The notes under the pieces were generated by a model, which was not told where the DNA came from, searched no databases, and worked only from the letters and a program-made list of their open reading frames with translations. The translations under genes and the position numbers were made by a program. This document shows positions 1 to 33,781 of a DNA stretch of 33,781 bases, in pieces. Where the stretch lies: contig REDB01000116.1 in assembly GCA_007693685.1 (NCBI GenBank), positions 1-33,781 of the forward strand, in the 5' to 3' direction. The DNA comes from Oceanospirillales bacterium (GTDB lineage: Bacteria > Pseudomonadota > Gammaproteobacteria > Pseudomonadales > Balneatricaceae). Positions within the stretch are counted from its first letter, which is position 1. Each line of letters begins with the position of its first letter.

Positions 1-2349
1 GATACCTGCCAGACTCCAAAAAATGGCTTTGTATTGTGAGTCGTAAAAGCGAGCAGCTAAGATAAACAGCAAAACTGGCGCGCCATAGGCTAACAGCAAT
101 AGATTGAAAATCGGTGTTTCACTAACAGCTTCGTTCCAGTTAAATAGTGGGTTTAACCAAGTGATCAGTAATAAGTAATTCATTACAGAAGCGATTAACA
201 ATAGTTGTGCGGTTAATCGATACAGGCTTTGCATCTGCTCTGCTAAGAAGCTTCGGTAATAGTAGACCAAACCCAGACTTCCCCAAATGACGGTATTGAA
301 TGCGGCTTCGGTAAAGCTATAGCGGCGTAAAAACAGGTTGCCATCATAAAGCCAGTAGCGCAGTAACATAAAGAGAAGCAATACGAATAGGTGTAGGCTG
401 GCGCCCTCTAACCAGCGTGAGATGGAGCTAGATCTGTTCAATCGGCTGGCAATAAATACCAAGGCAAAGCATCCTGCATAACTGATCAAGCTAGTATCGT
501 ATTGCGGAAATATCCAAGGTTGAAATGTCAGTCTTGCCAGAATCAACATCAGCAAAATTTTCATCACCCAACTTAATAACGCATCTTCATGCTGCTGATG
601 TAGCCAAGCAAGTGAGATGACCTGTGCCGCCAAGGCAAGAATCAATGTTGCCGAATCAAAGAAGATCACTACCGATAATGAATAACCTAAATGACCCGCC
701 AGAATAAGCCATGAGCGACAGCGATCTTTTTGCTGTCTTAACTGTGCTCGACCAATATAGCCCAGACCACAGATCAGCGCTGCTGCACTCCAGAACCAAT
801 CTTGTAATAAATCTCCCGCCAGTTGCCAAGCGAGAGCCAAAGCAAATAGCGGTGCCATGATGCCTAACGACAGCTTAAGGGCAGGGTAGCGTTGTGTTTT
901 CAGTGACCAGTAGGCATGACCCACGTATAGCAGAGTCCAAACCACGAGCAGTTTAAGTAAGGCTGTTTGATCTTCAAGATTGAGCGATACAAAGCGAGTG
1001 GAGAAGGTCCAGCCAGTATGAAAGTGAGCGGCGATAAGACTACTGAAGAACACCATCGCGCTCAGCCAAGGCAGAAGTTTAATCTGCTCATTAAAGCGAC
1101 TGCTGAATAAAATCAAAACTAACAGGGGTGTCCAAAGCCAGATTGCGTCTTGCCATTCAGGGTGAAGTGAAATGCTGATTCCTTGAGCCAGAATAATAAA
1201 ACTCAAGGCGATTAGCCTTTGACGTTGATCGATTGCTTTAAAACGGAAGAAAGCTTTAAGTGATCGCTTGATCGGTTGATCAAAATAAGTCTTTGTCAGC
1301 CTGAAATTAAACTCAGGAATACTTAGGAACAGATAGGCACTAAAGGTTAAGTAAAGCCCTACCCATTCCAATGACTGGCCACTCAGTTGAAGTAACCACC
1401 ACCAGCCCAGAACACCCGTTAGGGTTAAATTAAACAGCCAGTTTTGCTGCACATAACGCAGTAAGACAAGAGAGGAAGTCGTCACGATTAGAACATAAAT
1501 CAGGACGGGAAGTAGATCAGTGCTCCCTCCTCCGATAAGTAAGGGCACGGCATAAGCGCCCGCAATCCCTATCCAAGCCAAGATCGGACCATGCCATACT
1601 GCCAGCACCATCGCTGCTAAAGAGATCAACGCCAGTAACGCAAAGACGAACATCGGAGGCCAGAGTTGATAGAGATGCAGTGCTGCTAAGGTAACGCTGT
1701 AAAGCATCACAATTGCACCACCGGCGAGTGCGGCAACAGCTGAATATGCAGATTCCATTTTACGCCTTAGCCACTCTGCGCCCAACAACATGCCTAGGCC
1801 TAATAGCAGACCCAACACAATTCGTGCGGTTGGCCCCAATAGCCCTTGTTCAATCGAATAGCGGGCTAAGAAAACACCGGATAAGGCAATACAGCCGCCA
1901 CCTAACCACACCATCCAGTTACTTTTCCAGCTAGGTTGGGAAGTTGGCGCCTGTGTATCGGAAGATGCTTTATGAGTGTTAGCAGTCGCTTCGCTGAGTG
2001 TTTTAGGCTTATCGAATTTCTCACCCCAAGGATTAGGATCAGCTTGCTTCGTCGCCAACGGCTCTGCAGTTTCTGTTTCCTCTGGGAAGCTAGCATCCAA
2101 GTTAGAGATGATTGATTCAGATGTAGATTTAAGTTCTTCAGCTATCTCACTGGGTTCTTGAATCTGCTGGGAGTTAGGTAAGTCTTGAGTAAGGGTGGAG
2201 GAATTCGCTAAGCGTTGTTTGAGTGCTTCAAGTTCAGCAACGGTTCGTTTTAGTTTGCGAAGGGTAAAGAAGTTACTCCAACTCAATACAATGCTGGAGA
2301 GTAGAAGGAAACCCATTACTAGCGCCATCAATAGCCATGCTTCAAACAT
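1..2349 (-). CDS. DUF2339-like large multi-TM membrane protein (3' end lies beyond the left window edge)
   Basis: Open minus-strand frame from ATG at 2349 (MFEAWLLMALVMGFLLLSSIVLSW...) reading without a stop to position 1; N-terminal TM, coiled/charged linker, then many TM helices (WMVWLGGGCIALSGVFLARYSIEQGLLGPTARIVLGLLLGLGMLLGAEWLRR), typical of DUF2339. Absent from the ORF track because it runs off the edge. Confidence 0.8.
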   Translation of the reverse strand, partial: MFEAWLLMALVMGFLLLSSIVLSWSNFFTLRKLKRTVAELEALKQRLANSSTLTQDLPNSQQIQEPSEIAEELKSTSESIISNLDASFPEETETAEPLATKQADPNPWGEKFDKPKTLSEATANTHKASSDTQAPTSQPSWKSNWMVWLGGGCIALSGVFLARYSIEQGLLGPTARIVLGLLLGLGMLLGAEWLRRKMESAYSAVAALAGGAIVMLYSVTLAALHLYQLWPPMFVFALLALISLAAMVLAVWHGPILAWIGIAGAYAVPLLIGGGSTDLLPVLIYVLIVTTSSLVLLRYVQQNWLFNLTLTGVLGWWWLLQLSGQSLEWVGLYLTFSAYLFLSIPEFNFRLTKTYFDQPIKRSLKAFFRFKAIDQRQRLIALSFIILAQGISISLHPEWQDAIWLWTPLLVLILFSSRFNEQIKLLPWLSAMVFFSSLIAAHFHTGWTFSTRFVSLNLEDQTALLKLLVVWTLLYVGHAYWSLKTQRYPALKLSLGIMAPLFALALAWQLAGDLLQDWFWSAAALICGLGYIGRAQLRQQKDRCRSWLILAGHLGYSLSVVIFFDSATLILALAAQVISLAWLHQQHEDALLSWVMKILLMLILARLTFQPWIFPQYDTSLISYAGCFALVFIASRLNRSSSISRWLEGASLHLFVLLLFMLLRYWLYDGNLFLRRYSFTEAAFNTVIWGSLGLVYYYRSFLAEQMQSLYRLTAQLLLIASVMNYLLLITWLNPLFNWNEAVSETPIFNLLLLAYGAPVLLFILAARFYDSQYKAIFWSLAGI

Positions 2350-2541
2350 CTGGTGTCTTGTCCCTTTCGCTACTAAGAAATCACACTTTAGAGCGAGGTG
2401 TTATTCGCTGCAAATACTTTGTGTAAAAAACGACTTCGGATTTGTTAAATACGCCATGACATCAACTTTCTAGTCTAAGGTGAATTCTCAATCCCCTAGT
2501 CTTTGTGTCAGGATTGCATAAAAACTAGGAGGAAGTTTCTC

Positions 2542-2601
2542 GTGCTAGATCAAATTAACCTCAGGGTCGCTCGGGTGGTGAGCAATCATGACAAACATTG
2601 A
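2542..2601 (+). CDS. Possible 19-codon leader/upstream ORF overlapping the GNAT start (MLDQINLRVARVVSNHDKH)
   Basis: GTG at 2542 is preceded at about 8 nt by AGGAGGA (2527-2533); the frame closes at TGA 2599-2601, overlapping the ATG at 2588 in another frame. Confidence 0.3.
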   Translation: MLDQINLRVARVVSNHDKH

Positions 2602-3175
2602 GATTAGAAACTTAAATGGTGATGATATTTGGCCTTGGTTTGATGCCATTGCTGATTTAAGAATTCAGATCTTCAGAGGTTTCCCCTATTTGTATGATGG
2701 TACCCGAGCCTACGAGCAAAAGTACTTAAAGCATTATCTCAAAAAGCATTCACTGATTGTGGGTGCATTTGATGGCAAAAAACTTGTCGGTGCCGCGACT
2801 TGCGGAATATTGAGTGAGCACGACAAATCTTTTTCTGAAACCCTCTCCGATGCCGGCTTTAATCCAGAGACGATGCTCTACTGTGGTGAGTCGATGTTAC
2901 TGCCAGAATATCGAGGACAAGGGATTGGGTATGCGTTTTTTGATCATCGCGAGGCGCACGGGCGTGATTTAGGGTTGCAGTTTAGTTGTTTTGCTGCGGT
3001 CAGTCGGCCGCTAAGCCACCCTTTAAAACCCGAAAACTATCAATCCTTAGATGAGTTTTGGTATAAACGAGACTATGTTCCGCTAGAGGGTGTTGAAGCT
3101 GACTTTAGTTGGAAAGATGTTGATCAACAAAAAGAAACCGATAAGTCGATGCAGATTTGGCTCAAAATGTTGTGA
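2588..3175 (+). CDS. GNAT family N-acetyltransferase
   Basis: 195 aa; acetyl-CoA binding motif-like LLPEYRGQGIGYAFFDHREAHGRDLG. Confidence 0.85.
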   Translation: MTNIEIRNLNGDDIWPWFDAIADLRIQIFRGFPYLYDGTRAYEQKYLKHYLKKHSLIVGAFDGKKLVGAATCGILSEHDKSFSETLSDAGFNPETMLYCGESMLLPEYRGQGIGYAFFDHREAHGRDLGLQFSCFAAVSRPLSHPLKPENYQSLDEFWYKRDYVPLEGVEADFSWKDVDQQKETDKSMQIWLKML

Positions 3176-3188
3176 TAAAAAGTCATTT

Positions 3189-6100
3189 TTATAAGTTCTT
3201 TTCTTTAAGTAGTTGCTCTAATTGCTGTTGCAACAGAACACGTTTTTTATGGAGCTCTTCGATACCCTGAATGGCTGCGTCTTGCTGATCATTACTTTTT
3301 AGTGTGATCAGATCTATGGCATGTTGATGCAAAGAATGATGTGTCTTATCGATCTTATCAAATATGGCTGAGTTTATTCGTGAGCTAGGTGAATGCTGTG
3401 ATAGCCACGGGCCAAAACGACATTCATCTTTACGAATGAGTGGAGGCATTAGCAGTTGACCTCGTAAGAAGTGTTCTAATTCTTTCGTCCAAGCCAGATG
3501 CTCGACTATCGCAAAAAGTATTGGAAGGTCTCTATGATCTACCGGTTGAATGGAATTAAGCGTTTCTGCTGGTTTCCAAGTTTGAACCCATTCTTCGATC
3601 ATCAATGCAGGCATTGGTTTACCGATTGCGTAGCCTTGTCCTAGTTCACATCCGAGACGAAGTAGCATTTCACAATGTTCGAATGTTTCTACTCCTTCAG
3701 CGATCACTTTACGATTAAATGCCTTAGCTAAACCAATAATGCCGTCTAGAATGGCGAGATCATCTGGATCTTCTAGCATATCTCTAACAAAGCTTTGATC
3801 AATTTTTAGCATCTGTGCCGGTAAGCGTTTCAGATAAGTCAGTGAAGAGTAACCTGTACCAAAGTCATCCACAGAAAAGTCGACGCCTATTTTCTGACAG
3901 GCTTGAATGATCTTAGATACCCCTGCAATATTCTCAAGTGCACTGGTTTCAAGTATTTCGAGTTCAAGTTCTCCAGCAGCAAACTGATCGTGACGTTTAA
4001 TTTCAGCGATTAAGCGATCTATAAAATCGGCTTGCTGCAAGTGTAATGCATGGATATTGACGCTGATGGAAAGCTTTAATCCTTGGTTGCGCCATTCATC
4101 GAGCTGATTGAGTGCTGTCGATAACACCCACTCACCTAGTGATATAGCTAAAGGATGATGTTCGAGTATCGGTAAGAACGCAGCAGGAGGCAGGAGTCCT
4201 CGTTCAGGGTGTTGCCATCGAATAAGGGCTTCGACTCCTAGAACTTCGCCCGTGCGCATGTTGACCTTGGGTTGGTAATACAACACAAATTCATTGTTAC
4301 AGAGGGCTTCACGAATTCTTTCAATACTTTCATACTGTCCGCGCACAGCACTGTCTTGTTCAGTGTCAAAAATATGATAGTGATTCTTACCCGTTTGTTT
4401 GGCTTGATACATAGCTTGATCTGCTTGTCGTATCAATTGATCGGCATCCAGTTCTTCCTCCTGTGGGAAATAACTTACACCGATGCTTGCGGTAATAGAT
4501 ATTTGCCTATCCTTAATGGTGACAGGTTCAGCGCAGGTGTGAAGTAGGCGTTCGAGCACAGGTATACTGCTGGCAAGATTTGGGAAGTCGAGAAGCACAG
4601 CAACAAACTCATCGCCTCCAAAGCGGGCTAAGGTGTCGCCATCGCGCATGACAGACTTCATTTTGTTAGCGACCTGTATAAGCAACAGATCACCAAATTC
4701 ATGATCGTGAGAATCGTTAATGTTTTTAAAGCCATCAAGGTCTAGAAATACAACAGCAACTTTGTTTTTTCGTCGTTGAGCTTGTGCCATAGCTTGTTGA
4801 AGGCGATCCGCTAACAGTACCCGATTCGGGAGTCCAGTCAGCGCATCGTAGTGAGCCATAAACTCGAGTTGTTTTTGCTGATGTTTGAGTTGAGTGATGT
4901 CTGAAAAAATACCGATGTAACGGACCACATCGCCATTAGGTTTACGAATTGTACTGATGTTTAGAAGTTCTGCATAAATTTGGCCATTTTTATGGCGATT
5001 CCATAACTCACCACGCCATAAACCAGTTTGCTCAAGCGCTTTCCACATCTCTTGATAAAACTCTTGATTGTGATAATTAGAGCGCAGCATTCGGGGATTT
5101 TTTCCTATCACATCTTCTCGACTGTAACCGGTGATGTTGGTAAATGCTGTATTAATATCAAGAATTTTTCCTTGAGGGTCGGTGATAATAATGCCTTCAT
5201 TGGCATGTTCAAATACACTGGCTGCTTGACGTGTCAATGCATCGGCTTTGCGTCGCTGCTGTAACATTCGACCACTGACCCATAATGCCCAAAGAGTTAA
5301 AATGCTCAGTAAAACAATACTGGTAACAGCTAACTGACGATGGTCATACCAAAACACCTCTAATGGGATACGCTCATCAAAAGGTGGCATTCTTAAAGCA
5401 CGAGCTAAGTTTTCTACTGGTAAGTAATCACCAGGCGGTGAAAAACCACCAATGCTTGCACTGATGGCGGCTGGATGTGTTTCTTCTAAGGCCATCAATG
5501 CACTGGCAATTAAGCGAACATTTCTACGATCCAAATGAGGTAAGGATACAAATGCCCACTCAGGATATAGCCGGGTTGATACGCGATATGGAAAGTGAGG
5601 ATGTTGTTGAGGGTTAATAATTTTCAGCTCTGTTGGATCGATTTTACCCTCGCGTTCCATCGCTTCAATGATGCCTGTGCGTATAAATCCATATTCAACA
5701 TCACCCGCTAAAACTGCAAACACCACTCCATCATGACCGCCTAACTCAATCAATTCAGCATGGTCTGGCAGCCTCACTCCAACCTGTCTCAACTCATAGG
5801 ATTGGGTTTGAAATCCGCCTAAAAAACGAGTTCCCGGAACACCAATACGACTTCCTCGTAGCTGTCTTAGCTCATTGGCATCAGGATTGTCATAACGTGA
5901 GATAATGACGCCACCCAGATGATCAACCGCTTGACCATCCTCCTTGCTGATGAGTGTGGCTAGGGCTCCACTTAGTGGACTTCGACTTCTGACCTGAACA
6001 TAGTGGCTGGGGTTGGTAAAAAGTAAGTCTAATCGTTGATTCAGGATAGCATCTTCAATCTCATCTTGAGTCAGTACCTCAATAACCACCTGAGTATCGC

Positions 6101-6350
6101 CCAGTGCCTCAGTTAGATAGTCCGCTAAGGGTTGGTATTGTTGAGCTAGGATCTCTTTCGGACGAAAAGCGAAGATGCCCAGCGTAATATGTTTGTCGGT
6201 AAGTTGATGTTCGTAGCTACTAGCATGGGGTATAGAAGAAAAACACAGGATTAGTAGAAGCCCGAATAGTGCTATTGGCTTCAAAAATTTAAATCTAAGA
6301 CCGCTACCATTAGTGTCTGCGGCGCTGGTTATGATATTGATCAACACCAT
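3189..6350 (-). CDS. PhnD-like periplasmic-binding domain / TM / PAS / GGDEF / EAL protein with C-terminal CZB-like domain (bifunctional c-di-GMP signalling protein)
   Basis: Signal/TM N-terminus, PhnD-like region (ITLGIFAFRPKEILAQQYQPLADYLTEAL...), TM (LAVTSIVLLSILTLWALWVSG), PAS (FEHANEGIIITDPQGKILDINTAFTNITGYSREDVIGKNPRML), GGDEF (RFGGDEF) with RDGD I-site five residues upstream, EAL (GVEALIRW, DDFGTGYSS, EGVET), and a C-terminal HLAW...CRFGPWL...HHSLHQHA pattern. Confidence 0.9.
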   Translation of the reverse strand: MVLINIITSAADTNGSGLRFKFLKPIALFGLLLILCFSSIPHASSYEHQLTDKHITLGIFAFRPKEILAQQYQPLADYLTEALGDTQVVIEVLTQDEIEDAILNQRLDLLFTNPSHYVQVRSRSPLSGALATLISKEDGQAVDHLGGVIISRYDNPDANELRQLRGSRIGVPGTRFLGGFQTQSYELRQVGVRLPDHAELIELGGHDGVVFAVLAGDVEYGFIRTGIIEAMEREGKIDPTELKIINPQQHPHFPYRVSTRLYPEWAFVSLPHLDRRNVRLIASALMALEETHPAAISASIGGFSPPGDYLPVENLARALRMPPFDERIPLEVFWYDHRQLAVTSIVLLSILTLWALWVSGRMLQQRRKADALTRQAASVFEHANEGIIITDPQGKILDINTAFTNITGYSREDVIGKNPRMLRSNYHNQEFYQEMWKALEQTGLWRGELWNRHKNGQIYAELLNISTIRKPNGDVVRYIGIFSDITQLKHQQKQLEFMAHYDALTGLPNRVLLADRLQQAMAQAQRRKNKVAVVFLDLDGFKNINDSHDHEFGDLLLIQVANKMKSVMRDGDTLARFGGDEFVAVLLDFPNLASSIPVLERLLHTCAEPVTIKDRQISITASIGVSYFPQEEELDADQLIRQADQAMYQAKQTGKNHYHIFDTEQDSAVRGQYESIERIREALCNNEFVLYYQPKVNMRTGEVLGVEALIRWQHPERGLLPPAAFLPILEHHPLAISLGEWVLSTALNQLDEWRNQGLKLSISVNIHALHLQQADFIDRLIAEIKRHDQFAAGELELEILETSALENIAGVSKIIQACQKIGVDFSVDDFGTGYSSLTYLKRLPAQMLKIDQSFVRDMLEDPDDLAILDGIIGLAKAFNRKVIAEGVETFEHCEMLLRLGCELGQGYAIGKPMPALMIEEWVQTWKPAETLNSIQPVDHRDLPILFAIVEHLAWTKELEHFLRGQLLMPPLIRKDECRFGPWLSQHSPSSRINSAIFDKIDKTHHSLHQHAIDLITLKSNDQQDAAIQGIEELHKKRVLLQQQLEQLLKEKNL

Positions 6351-6499
6351 AATAGCTCTATTTGATCTGTCTTATCATTAGTGTATATAAATACTCTTAT
6401 AAAATATAAGTGATTATAGTTGTTTATAGAGTATAAGACATGAAAAGGTTTTTCTGTATTTACGCATGCTAATATTTAGTTTAATAAAGCGATAAATAG

Positions 6500-7678
6500 T
6501 TAGTTTTTACTCAACTCTTTCATCGCACCATCCAGCCCTTCCAGTGTCATTGGGAACATACGCTGCTTAACAAGGTTTTGTATCATTCCAATGGACTGAG
6601 TGTAAGGCCAGTAGCGCTGCTCGACAGGGTTTAACCATATTAAAGAGGGCCAGTGCTGAGTGAGTCGCTCTATCCAGCGCTGACCCGGTTCAGCATTCAT
6701 ATGCTCAACACTGCCACCGGGAACAGCGATTTCATAGGGCGACATGGACGCATCACCAACAATAATGACTTTGTAATCGGATGCGTAGGTGTTGATTAAG
6801 TCTAGTGTCGCGGTGCGGTTATCGAAGCGACGACGATTATCACGCCAAACCGATTCATAGATGCAGTTATGAAAGTAATAACTTTCTAGATGCCGAAACT
6901 CGGTCTTACAGGCACTGAATAAGGCTTCGATATGCTGTATGTGTTCATCCATTGATCCACCAATATCCAACAGCAGCAATACCTTAACAGCGTTATGGCG
7001 TTCACGTACCATTTTGATATCTAAGTGACCCGCATTGCGGGCGGTAGCTCGAATAGTGGATTCCAGATCCAGTTCTTCATGAGCGCCGGTACGGGCGAAT
7101 TTACGCAATCGTTTCAGTGCAACTTGAATATTGCGGTTATCAAGATTTTGATTGTCATCGAGGTTACGAAATTCTCGCTTCTCCCAAACCTTTACCGCTT
7201 TGCGATGGCGAGATTCACCACCGATACGAATACCTTCGGGATGATAGCCGCTATGACCAAAGGGTGAGGTTCCGCCTGTTCCGACCCATTTGTTGCCGCC
7301 CGCATGACGACCTTTTTGTTCATCTAAACGTTGTTTGAGCGTGTCCAGCAACTTTTCTAAACTGCCTAGACTACTTAATTCGGATTTTTCGGCGTCACTG
7401 AGTTCACGTGCAAAGGTTTTTCGCAGCCATTCATCGGGAATCAGTTGCTCTAGTGACATGGGCAACTCGCCTAACCCAGAAAAGTAATAGGCAAAGGCTT
7501 GGTCAAAACGGTCATAGAACTTTTCGTCTTTGACTAAGCAAGTACGTGCTAGCAGATAAAAAGCATCCATATCCGCAAAGGCAAGATTGCTATCCAGTGC
7601 TCGCAGTAGGTCGAGAAATTCCCGTGGTGTTACAGGTAATTCCGCTTTACGCAGTGTCTCGAAAAAATCGATTAACAT
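6500..7678 (-). CDS. CoxE-like VWA domain-containing protein
   Basis: VWA-like LLLLDIGGSMDEHIQHIEALFSAC; adjacent to a MoxR ATPase. The track ORF begins at 7777, but MLIDFFETLRKAELPVTPREFLDLL (ATG at 7678) is the plausible start because it removes most of the overlap with the ATPase gene. Confidence 0.85.
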   Translation of the reverse strand: MLIDFFETLRKAELPVTPREFLDLLRALDSNLAFADMDAFYLLARTCLVKDEKFYDRFDQAFAYYFSGLGELPMSLEQLIPDEWLRKTFARELSDAEKSELSSLGSLEKLLDTLKQRLDEQKGRHAGGNKWVGTGGTSPFGHSGYHPEGIRIGGESRHRKAVKVWEKREFRNLDDNQNLDNRNIQVALKRLRKFARTGAHEELDLESTIRATARNAGHLDIKMVRERHNAVKVLLLLDIGGSMDEHIQHIEALFSACKTEFRHLESYYFHNCIYESVWRDNRRRFDNRTATLDLINTYASDYKVIIVGDASMSPYEIAVPGGSVEHMNAEPGQRWIERLTQHWPSLIWLNPVEQRYWPYTQSIGMIQNLVKQRMFPMTLEGLDGAMKELSKN

Positions 7679-7695
7679 TTCAAAGCCCTTGTCGC

Positions 7696-8541
7696 TTAAC
7701 GTTGCTGGCGACGAATCATAAAGGCTAGTCGTTCCAATAGGCTGGTGTCTTGTTCGTTTTTGACCAGTGCACCACATAAAGGAGGAACGGCTGAAGCGGT
7801 GTCTTGCTTCAGGAGTACTTCGCGAGCAAGATCATCTGCCATCAATAGCTTAAGCCAATCCACTAATTCTGAAGTGCTGGGCTTTTTCTTCAATCCAGAA
7901 ATATCCCTTAGGTCATAAAAGACCTCTAAGGCGCGTTCGACCAATCTTTTCTGAATCTCTGGAAAGTGCACATCAATGATTTGACGCATCGTCTCTTTGT
8001 CAGGAAAGCGGATGTAATGAAAGAAACAACGACGCAGAAAGGCATCTGGGAGTTCTTTTTCATTATTAGAGGTAATAATCACCAAAGGGCGGTGAATGGC
8101 ACGGATGTTTTGCTGGGTTTCGTAAACATAAAACTCCATTCGATCCAGTTCAAGTAATAAATCGTTAGGAAACTCTATGTCTGCTTTGTCGATTTCGTCG
8201 ATTAACAGCACCGCAGGTGAATCACTGGTGAAGGCTTCCCATACTTTTCCTGGCACGATGTAGTTGCTGATGTCATGCACACGATCATCACCGAGTTGCG
8301 AATCACGTAACCGTGAAACAGCATCATACTCATATAGGCCCTGCTGCGCCTTAGTGGTGGATTTGACGTGCCAGGTAAATAAAGGGCGGCCTAATGCACT
8401 CGCGACTTCTTCAGCCAGTAAGGTTTTACCAGTACCCGGTTCACCTTTAATCAGCAGTGGACGTTGGAGAGTTAAAGCAGCGTTAACGGCTAGTTGAAGC
8501 TCATCCGTTGCCACATAACGTTCAGTACCTGTGAATTGCAT
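7696..8541 (-). CDS. MoxR family AAA+ ATPase
   Basis: Walker A GEPGTGKTLLAEEVA, Walker B VLLIDEIDKAD, sensor-1 region VIITSNNEKELPDAFLRRCFFHYI. Confidence 0.9.
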   Translation of the reverse strand: MQFTGTERYVATDELQLAVNAALTLQRPLLIKGEPGTGKTLLAEEVASALGRPLFTWHVKSTTKAQQGLYEYDAVSRLRDSQLGDDRVHDISNYIVPGKVWEAFTSDSPAVLLIDEIDKADIEFPNDLLLELDRMEFYVYETQQNIRAIHRPLVIITSNNEKELPDAFLRRCFFHYIRFPDKETMRQIIDVHFPEIQKRLVERALEVFYDLRDISGLKKKPSTSELVDWLKLLMADDLAREVLLKQDTASAVPPLCGALVKNEQDTSLLERLAFMIRRQQR

Positions 8542-31411: not shown

Positions 31412-31445
31412 TTAAGAATTTGCTAACGTCTTTTCTTCTTAAAAT

Positions 31446-31469
31446 ATGTGCATCAGTGCTGATGCACAT
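31446..31469. terminator. 11-bp perfect inverted repeat between convergent lipB and CBS gene; probable bidirectional terminator
   Basis: ATGTGCATCAG-TG-CTGATGCACAT; on the minus strand followed by ATTTTAAG, on the plus strand by CATCTTATAA. Confidence 0.55.
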
Positions 31470-31492
31470 CATCTTATAAATTGTTAAATCGC

Positions 31493-31879
31493 TTATTCAA
31501 TAGTATTCATAATTGTTTGAACTATGTCGTTCATGCAAACTAAACCGATTAGATCATTGTCATCGACCACAATTACCCGCTTAACACGTTGTGCAGTCAT
31601 CAGGCTTGCAACATGTTTTACCGATAAGCTTTTACCTACCGAGATGATGGGTTTTGCGCAAATATCATAGACATTGATAAGATCGATATCGCCACTTTCG
31701 GCGACTACGGTTTTCATTATGTTGGTGTAAGTGATTAATCCGTAAGCATCATGGTCGGATGTTTTCTCTACCACCAGAGATTTAAGTTTGTGCTGCTTCA
31801 TCAAGCTAAGTGCTTCACGAAGCGTTGCAAAGGAAGATACCGTTACAACATTTTTGATCATTACATCATTTACAAGCAT
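31493..31879 (-). CDS. Two-CBS-domain protein
   Basis: MLVNDVMIKNVVTVSSFATLREALSLMKQHKLKSLVVEKTSDHDAYGLITYTNIMKTVV...CAKPIISVGKSLSVKHVASLMTAQRVKRVIVVDDNDLIGLVCMNDIVQTI: two CBS repeats. Confidence 0.9.
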   Translation of the reverse strand: MLVNDVMIKNVVTVSSFATLREALSLMKQHKLKSLVVEKTSDHDAYGLITYTNIMKTVVAESGDIDLINVYDICAKPIISVGKSLSVKHVASLMTAQRVKRVIVVDDNDLIGLVCMNDIVQTIMNTIE

Positions 31880-31894
31880 GAAATACTGTCCCCT

Positions 31895-32248
31895 TTAAAG
31901 TGTGTCTTTGAGGTGCTGCTCAAACTTCGCTAATTGCGAAAGATCAATGCCACCTAAATGTTCTAGTGGAATGGTGAAGACTACACCATGCGAGTCGTTG
32001 TTTTCTTTGTCTAAAATCAGCGCTTGAATTGCTTTTAGAATCTCTAAGGATAAACCCTTTTCCAGTACCATAATAATAATTGACTGGCTGCCTTCGTAGG
32101 TCATACCAAAAAAAGTTTTCTTAGCGTTGTTGCCAATGCCTCGGCCAGATAACAACGTAATACCTCCAGCACCAGATTTTTGAGCAGTATCAATAACTTT
32201 TTGCTCGTAATCTTCAGAAACAATTGCGGCTAGTACGGAGAATTTCAT
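31895..32248 (-). CDS. Divergent PII-like (nitrogen regulatory protein P-II superfamily) protein
   Basis: 117 aa; KSGAGGITLLSGRGIGNNAKKTFFGMTYEGSQSIIIMVLEKGLSLEILKAIQALI...SHGVVFTIPLEHLGGI resembles PII beta-alpha-beta organisation; overlaps the upstream gene by 4 nt (ATGA). Confidence 0.8.
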   Translation of the reverse strand: MKFSVLAAIVSEDYEQKVIDTAQKSGAGGITLLSGRGIGNNAKKTFFGMTYEGSQSIIIMVLEKGLSLEILKAIQALILDKENNDSHGVVFTIPLEHLGGIDLSQLAKFEQHLKDTL

Positions 32249-33732
32249 ATTGTCTTCCTATTGAATTTGTTCAACCAGTCCACTGCAATGGCATAACACA
32301 TTACAGAAACAATCGGGAAAATAGATGCAAAGGCAATTAAGCCAAACCCATCAATGAGTACGTTACGACCTTCAATATGGGTTGCTAAACCAATGCCGAG
32401 AGCCGTTACCAAGGGTACGGTGACTTCAGAAGTGGTAACGCCGCCTAAGTCGAAAGCTAAGGCAACTATGTACTTAGGGCTAAACATCGTCAGTAAGATC
32501 ACAAGCGTATATCCACCAATAATAAAATAGTGAATCGATCCGCCAGTAATTAGACGATAAACACCAATGGTAATACCGACAGCAACACCCATGGCAACGA
32601 GGATGCGGATCATATTGCCTTTAATTTTACCAGCAGCCGCTTCCTCTGCTTGCTGACCTACCGCAATTAAAGCGGGTTCTGCCATTGTTGTTGCAAAGCC
32701 GATCATGAAGGCGAAAAGATAGATAAACCCATAACTATTTAAGCCGATTAACTGCTCTGCCATGCTAGTGCCAATTGGGAATAGCCCAATTTTAAGACCT
32801 ACCACAAACGCATATAACCCTATGATCACTAGAAGAAAACCGAATGCAATTTTAGGAGGGTTAGATAAAGGCCGTTTCAATACGATATATTGAAAAAACA
32901 AAATTGTGATAAGAATCGGTAAAACATCTCTAAACATGGTCAGCAGATCTAGTAGCCCCTGTACCACTGGATGCGTGACAGCGACTTCTGCCGTTTGAAT
33001 CACTTGAGCAGATACACTGTCAACATCGACTGAATAGACAAAAATTCCATACAGCTGCACGCTGATCATAGGAACCATTACCGCTAAAGCGACTAAACCA
33101 AAGCCATCGATAAGTGGATTACGACCCCGTATCGACGAAGCTAGCCCTATGCCTAAAGCGGCTATCAGTGGAACCGTCACAATGTTAGTGGTGACTCCGC
33201 CAGAGTCATAAGCTAAACCCACTATCTCTTCAGGTGCAAAGAAGGTAACACTCACCACAATGATATAGCCAATAATCATGTACCAATGAATAGGGTGTCC
33301 AAAAATGATTCTGAATACACCTAATGCAATCACTAAACCGACTGACGTTGCTACTAAGAGGCGTAATACCAGCGCATCAATTCGACCTTCACTGATCTCC
33401 TGCGCCTGACTGGCTACCGCTATCAAGGCAGGTTCTGCGACCACCGCTGAAAAGCCGAGTGCGAAACCGAAGCTTAATAGAATCGGCACTGAACCTTTTT
33501 TAGCAAACTGGTTTGAAAGACTTTTACCGACAGGGAAAATACTTAACTCTAATCCCTGTAAGAATAAAGCGACACCGACAGCAACAATCAGCAGGCCAAA
33601 TGCCATGCTGAGACTGTTTTCGGGCATTTGTTGTAAGATGGCAAGCTGAAAAAATAGAACCACAACAAGAATTGGAAGTAAATTCTTGAGTGCGTGGAGG
33701 AATGCATGAGAAAAGCTTTTTAAGTACAGCAA
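32245..33732 (-). CDS. Tandem-duplicated DUF1538 multi-TM membrane protein
   Basis: 495 aa; two homologous halves each with AEPALIAVxxQAxE and D(S/L)GGVTTxxVTVPLxxALGIGLAxxIxGRNxLIDGFGL. Apparent TTG start at 33732 preceded by a GAGG-like RBS; an upstream in-frame TAA limits extension. Confidence 0.88.
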   Translation of the reverse strand: MLYLKSFSHAFLHALKNLLPILVVVLFFQLAILQQMPENSLSMAFGLLIVAVGVALFLQGLELSIFPVGKSLSNQFAKKGSVPILLSFGFALGFSAVVAEPALIAVASQAQEISEGRIDALVLRLLVATSVGLVIALGVFRIIFGHPIHWYMIIGYIIVVSVTFFAPEEIVGLAYDSGGVTTNIVTVPLIAALGIGLASSIRGRNPLIDGFGLVALAVMVPMISVQLYGIFVYSVDVDSVSAQVIQTAEVAVTHPVVQGLLDLLTMFRDVLPILITILFFQYIVLKRPLSNPPKIAFGFLLVIIGLYAFVVGLKIGLFPIGTSMAEQLIGLNSYGFIYLFAFMIGFATTMAEPALIAVGQQAEEAAAGKIKGNMIRILVAMGVAVGITIGVYRLITGGSIHYFIIGGYTLVILLTMFSPKYIVALAFDLGGVTTSEVTVPLVTALGIGLATHIEGRNVLIDGFGLIAFASIFPIVSVMCYAIAVDWLNKFNRKTI

Positions 33733-33781
33733 ATCGGCCTCGCGTTAAGTCATCAGGTCGTGAACGCTAATGTCAAAGGCT

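Follow-up and report, generated by a model that had tools for sequence, protein, structure and literature searches.

A membrane protein of the DUF1538 family is encoded beside two small soluble proteins, one PII-like and one with a pair of CBS domains, in the genome of an Oceanospirillales bacterium. This locus raises the question of what the membrane protein transports and whether its two neighbours control it. The stretch of DNA that was analysed, hereafter the window, comprises 33,781 nucleotides and makes up one complete contig of a draft assembly.

Layout of the locus

The three genes are located on the minus strand. The double-DUF1538 membrane gene (32,245–33,732) encodes 495 amino acids from a TTG start, and its start site (TTGCTGTA) was identical in four relatives. 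The protein consists of a UmpA-like N-half (residues 5–231) and a UmpB-like C-half (residues 264–492). It is followed by the PII-like gene (31,895–32,248; 117 amino acids) and the CBS-pair gene (31,493–31,879; 128 amino acids). According to the ORF coordinates, the stop of the DUF1538 gene and the start of the PII-like gene share an ATGA overlap (32,245–32,248, minus strand), and 15 nt separate the PII stop from the CBS start. An earlier sequence-only reading had described these three genes as tightly packed on the minus strand, and its coordinates, ATGA overlap and 15-nt gap were all exact. The same reading held that a convergent hairpin isolates the operon from lipB. A hairpin is indeed present where the CBS and lipB genes converge (31,441–31,475, minus strand; folding energy −18.7 kcal/mol, z = −4.2), but the terminator scan made no call on it and a long T run is absent. 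Hence, separation of the operon from lipB by a convergent terminator is likely, but not proven.

At the other side of the operon, 49 nt separate the DUF1538 start from the window edge, which falls on the stop codon of a further gene (Ser-Leu-stop; 33,773–33,781, minus strand). In relatives, the umpAB module has its CBS gene at this position; this synteny suggests that the gene cut at the contig end is a second CBS gene, and the operon therefore probably continues past the window edge. In three genus-mates (L031, L036, L039), the gene order is PII-umpA-umpB-PII-CBS, followed by the single-chain (UmpA-UmpB-type) DUF1538 gene, PII and CBS. This array comprises two putative antiporter modules and three PII genes in a single run. 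The arrays of some genus-mates begin at umpA and do not have the first PII gene. In one genome (G007; L037, positions 4419–8053), umpA and the single-chain DUF1538 gene are broken by stops or frameshifts, which may reflect either the draft assembly or decay.

The last genes on another contig of the window genome (C5) are the first PII gene and a truncated umpA of which the start is present; this contig shares synteny with L036 at 85% identity. From this synteny we infer that roughly 2.3 kb between C5 and the window contig (C30) is missing from the assembly. The region upstream of the first PII gene on C5 (L177, positions 1–7126) encodes a CvrA-type K+/H+ antiporter (700 bits) and a CPA2 (Kef-like) protein, as well as the ectoine-catabolism genes doeB2 and a diaminobutyrate transaminase. 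The window genome also contains two canonical PII genes, which flank amtB.

Linkage and fusion of DUF1538 with PII

We compared 398 genomes of Pseudomonadota for the co-occurrence of DUF1538 and PII proteins of the window's subtype. This subtype was found in all 88 genomes with DUF1538, versus only 15 of the 310 genomes without it (Fisher p = 4e-73, with no correction for kinship; the DUF1538 counts span 41 genera). The profile for the window subtype did not match the two canonical PII genes of the window genome, and the idea that it merely catches GlnB and GlnK was rejected for that reason. When the window PII itself served as query, 28 of 57 relatives were matched, all of them with DUF1538, out of 30 DUF1538-bearing relatives. 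The two DUF1538-bearing genomes that were missed have divergent PII proteins adjoining the DUF1538 gene, namely a 130-aa P-II protein in G049 and, in G038 (L043), a 420-aa protein that matches P-II and seemingly contains three PII domains.

The 80 named loci gave a similar picture. PII was located directly downstream of DUF1538 in 62 loci and was fused to it in 13, while in the remaining five the contig ended at the gene. Leaving out these five, PII was adjacent or fused in 75 of 75 testable loci; because the loci were chosen by DUF1538 similarity, this tells us that DUF1538 has a PII, and not the converse. Chance adjacency was rejected on the basis of these loci and the genome counts. PII was also adjacent in all 29 further loci from the Pseudomonadota search, and the DUF1538 gene ended in ATGA in 56 of the 62 relatives with a separate PII gene. 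In six plasmid loci (four of Clostridia, two of Alphaproteobacteria), PII adjoins DUF1538 and a CBS gene is missing. The PII protein linked to DUF1538 in Clostridia has 217–229 amino acids (217–222 in L191, L194 and L196) and two PII domains, one of which is weak in L193. On a Methylocystis plasmid (L192), umpA, umpB and PII are located between IS66-type transposase genes, which suggests that this module moves horizontally. Furthermore, the type of PII tracked the type of the neighbouring DUF1538 protein, with 13 changes versus 63.8 in shuffles on a PII tree built from few columns.

Most of the scores were weak in the 15 genomes with a PII of the window subtype but without DUF1538. In two such cases (L183, L184), the gene was located beside dusB and an ntrB-like gene, and in L183 beside an ntrC-like gene as well. 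This location suggests another role for this type of PII.

In 13 proteins of Campylobacterota, the PII domain forms the C-terminus of the double-DUF1538 chain. The carriers include Sulfurimonas, Poseidonibacter, Aliarcobacter, Sulfuricurvum and Thiovulum, among others. All three fusions that were checked passed both Pfam cut-offs, and the fused form was a single clade in the PII tree, which is short of columns. The predicted model of one fusion (pLDDT 80) showed a PII fold in the fused domain, and the best Foldseek matches of this domain were PII, SbtB and CPII (probability 1.00, E about 0.004). This covalent link is the strongest sequence evidence that PII acts on the DUF1538 protein. Together, adjacency and fusion show a functional association, and are silent on the sign or mechanism of control.

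The CBS gene showed a different distribution. It followed PII in 61 of 61 named loci with a separate PII gene and a continuing contig. However, no CBS gene was found near the loci with fused PII in Campylobacterota, and it was absent from the loci examined in Bacillota and Alphaproteobacteria and from some in Gammaproteobacteria. Because PII is present across the loci and CBS is missing from several lineages, the sequences identify DUF1538 and PII as the core pair, with CBS as an added, lineage-specific third member. Of the three-family linkage proposed by the sequence-only reading, the link between DUF1538 and PII was thus upheld without exception and is conserved in three phyla, whereas CBS belongs to particular lineages.

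Properties of the three proteins

The window membrane protein matched Pfam DUF1538 (PF07556) in two copies (8e-137; 453.8 bits versus a cut-off of 22.6). Its two halves are 47% identical over 219 residues. The best stretch for NCBIfam UmpA was the N-half (451.6 bits; cut-off 490) and that for UmpB the C-half (403.5 bits; cut-off 500). By these scores we assign the protein to the DUF1538 family, and do not assert it to be a UmpAB equivalog. It is about 50% identical to split UmpA relatives and represents a distinct fused subfamily of the UmpA-UmpB type, plausibly with an antiporter function. Given this identity and the scores below the cut-offs, its substrate may differ from that of UmpAB.

UmpA and UmpB of Halomonas zhaodongensis are both DUF1538 proteins (NCBIfam NF041627 and NF041628) and form a heterodimer (PMC5484666), which is consistent with the fused two-half form of the window protein. 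Only the two together rescue an E. coli strain without NhaA, NhaB and ChaA, and the measured activity is a pH-dependent Na+(Li+,K+)/H+ exchange with an optimum at pH 9 (PMC5484666). UmpAB is so far the sole DUF1538 pair that has been assayed (PMC5484666). The view in the sequence-only reading that DUF1538 is uncharacterised and its substrate unknown is therefore out of date, and a substrate class can be proposed for the window protein.

The 4.2-kb insert from H. zhaodongensis contained a truncated citrate-transporter gene, an MFS gene and umpAB, but no PII or CBS gene (PMC5484666). Since UmpAB was active in E. coli on this insert (PMC5484666), the soluble partners are dispensable for activity, which is consistent with a regulatory role. 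In a genus-mate (G001) and in another genome of the order (G721), UmpB scored above the curated cut-off and was directly followed by PII and CBS; in G721, an MFS gene is located upstream, as in the H. zhaodongensis clone. Because these relatives carry both genes while the insert has neither, cloning had probably separated the assayed UmpAB from its PII and CBS genes.

Four acidic residues (E100, D176, E352 and D428) were invariant in an alignment of 45 proteins. They fall within repeated AEP and DxGGVTT motifs, which are strictly conserved and common to the split and fused forms of DUF1538. In the predicted model of the window protein (pLDDT 82, pTM 0.81), these residues are located at or beside breaks between helices, and it is reasonable to regard them as candidate cation or proton sites. 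A sequence search of solved structures returned no relative of the DUF1538 protein, and Foldseek with the membrane model found nothing significant among solved structures (best E 0.015, TM about 0.2); the weak matches to INDY, MATE and glutamate transporters were taken as noise. DUF1538 is among the genes that are informative for bacterial growth pH (PMC13255231), and its named carriers include many halophiles and alkaliphiles.

The PII-like protein of the window matched Pfam P-II (2.8e-7; 31.2 bits versus a cut-off of 25) and belongs to the PII superfamily, with the fold seen in the model of the homologous fused domain. We aligned it with both canonical PII proteins that the window genome encodes. 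Each of these has K90, R101 and R103, the ATP-phosphate ligands of GlnB and GlnK, and the T-loop tyrosine (51), which is their modification site. These three residues and the region of the tyrosine are absent from the window PII-like protein and its relatives. Judged from this alignment, neither uridylylation nor canonical ATP-Mg binding is likely for the subtype. Several conserved glycines and T29 are retained, and ligand binding as in SbtB or CPII is possible. No diadenylate cyclase (PF02457) was found in the 92%-complete genome, which makes c-di-AMP an unlikely ligand and a receptor of the DarA or CbpB type improbable. The nucleotide-gated transporter of the sequence-only reading was hence correct in placing dedicated soluble regulators beside a transporter, as the linkage and fusions indicate, but the PII protein does not have the canonical ATP-phosphate residues, and nucleotide gating is best treated as a hypothesis.

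The CBS-pair protein matched Pfam CBS (4.8e-22) in two stretches, corresponding to two CBS domains. For the CBS adenosine motif G-h-h-T/S-x-x-D/N, GLITYTN fits, and GLVCMND has C in place of T/S. The D/N positions, which serve adenosine-ribose binding, are kept, mostly so in the relatives too, and the T/S position is kept in part. The protein is a probable second, lineage-specific sensor.

A proposed PII-regulated antiporter and its alternatives

We consider it likely that the locus encodes a cation/proton antiporter and, in the PII-like protein, a subunit dedicated to it. This reading builds on gene order, co-occurrence, fusion in relatives, the predicted fold of the fused PII domain and homology to UmpAB; from these we infer antiport by the window protein, docking, the direction of control and the ligands. 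The single-chain UmpA-UmpB fusion would most likely serve pH and salt homeostasis by exchanging Na+, Li+ or K+ for H+. The PII-like protein, presumably a trimer, would dock on the cytoplasmic face as a dedicated regulatory subunit, and would restrain or release transport upon binding a small cytoplasmic ligand, like GlnK on AmtB and SbtB on SbtA. The CBS-pair protein would be an added sensor on the same complex, perhaps of the adenylate level or ionic strength. More generally, the balance of evidence leans towards a widespread antiporter family in Pseudomonadota, Campylobacterota and Bacillota, in which a ligand-sensing PII-like subunit, sometimes covalently attached, gates ion exchange by a DUF1538 protein predicted to be trimeric.

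The same PII-regulated architecture might carry another cargo, such as bicarbonate, another anion or an organic ion moved with Na+ or H+, so that antiport would be a property of the UmpAB subfamily. Antiport has been assayed for one DUF1538 pair to date (PMC5484666), the window protein belongs to a distinct fused subfamily below the UmpA and UmpB cut-offs, and SbtB and CPII, which are tied to bicarbonate, are among the nearest PII folds. Moreover, the genus carries the split and the fused type next to each other, an arrangement that would be redundant for two proteins of equal function. However, the AEP and DxGGVTT motifs are shared strictly by split and fused forms, many of the named carriers live in saline or alkaline conditions, and the neighbourhood consists of antiporters and ectoine metabolism. 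We therefore regard a different cargo as unlikely.

It is very improbable that PII and CBS are co-transcribed sensors of targets elsewhere, such as nitrogen or osmolyte enzymes, and that their linkage reflects shared expression under stress. Canonical PII proteins do have many soluble targets, the window's genus has an additional PII gene ahead of umpA, and PII proteins of this subtype also occur in genomes without DUF1538, where two adjoin dusB and ntrB-like genes. Against such sensors speak the covalent fusions in Campylobacterota, the adjacency in three phyla with differing surroundings, and a PII type that tracks its cognate DUF1538 type. Least probable is a role of the small proteins in assembly or stability instead of ligand-gated regulation, with a degenerate PII fold as a structural cap. 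In favour of this, the whole subtype has lost the canonical ATP-contact residues and the modification site, but its conserved glycines and T29 remain, and SbtB and CPII, which are also divergent PII proteins, still bind nucleotides in deposited complexes. Moreover, neither PII nor CBS is needed for UmpAB to assemble and function in E. coli (PMC5484666).

If the preferred reading of a PII-regulated antiporter is true, PII control reaches beyond nitrogen and carbon uptake into pH and Na+ homeostasis, which a dedicated PII subunit would tie to a metabolic signal. UmpAB would then be only half described, as a cloned fragment without its PII or CBS gene. The natural single-chain fusions lend themselves to structural studies of PII gating. 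Documented PII control of transporters concerns the uptake of ammonium, nitrate, urea and bicarbonate, and a 2023 review of transporter regulation lists only Amt, Nrt, Urt and SbtA, and no PII-controlled antiporter (PMC10710835). Searches for DUF1538 or UmpAB with PII or P-II, and for PII-like proteins with an antiporter and CBS, returned no relevant open-access paper. The ingredients are each known, and the pairing of DUF1538 with PII in three phyla with natural fusions appears to be undescribed, although the link may have been noted elsewhere.

UmpAB is one of the closest known systems. UmpA corresponds to the N-half of the window protein and UmpB to its C-half, the conserved motifs are the same, and a genus-mate has UmpB above the cut-off. 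In contrast to UmpAB, the window protein is fused into one chain and scores below the equivalog cut-offs, and the published work on UmpAB describes no PII or CBS partner. CorB/CorC, MgtE and OpuA likewise use a CBS pair as adenine-nucleotide sensor for a transporter, whereas the window CBS is a separate, lineage-specific protein of 128 amino acids. SbtB-SbtA and CPII share a transporter-linked PII-like fold and are among the nearest structural matches. Their membrane partner is unrelated, however, and for the window PII the binding of cAMP, AMP or bicarbonate is hypothetical. GlnK-AmtB, of which the window genome has its own amtB example, is similar in that a PII-fold protein is encoded beside a membrane transporter. 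It differs in that the transporter belongs to another family, that the window PII has neither the T-loop tyrosine nor the ATP-phosphate residues, and that for DUF1538 and PII a natural covalent fusion exists.
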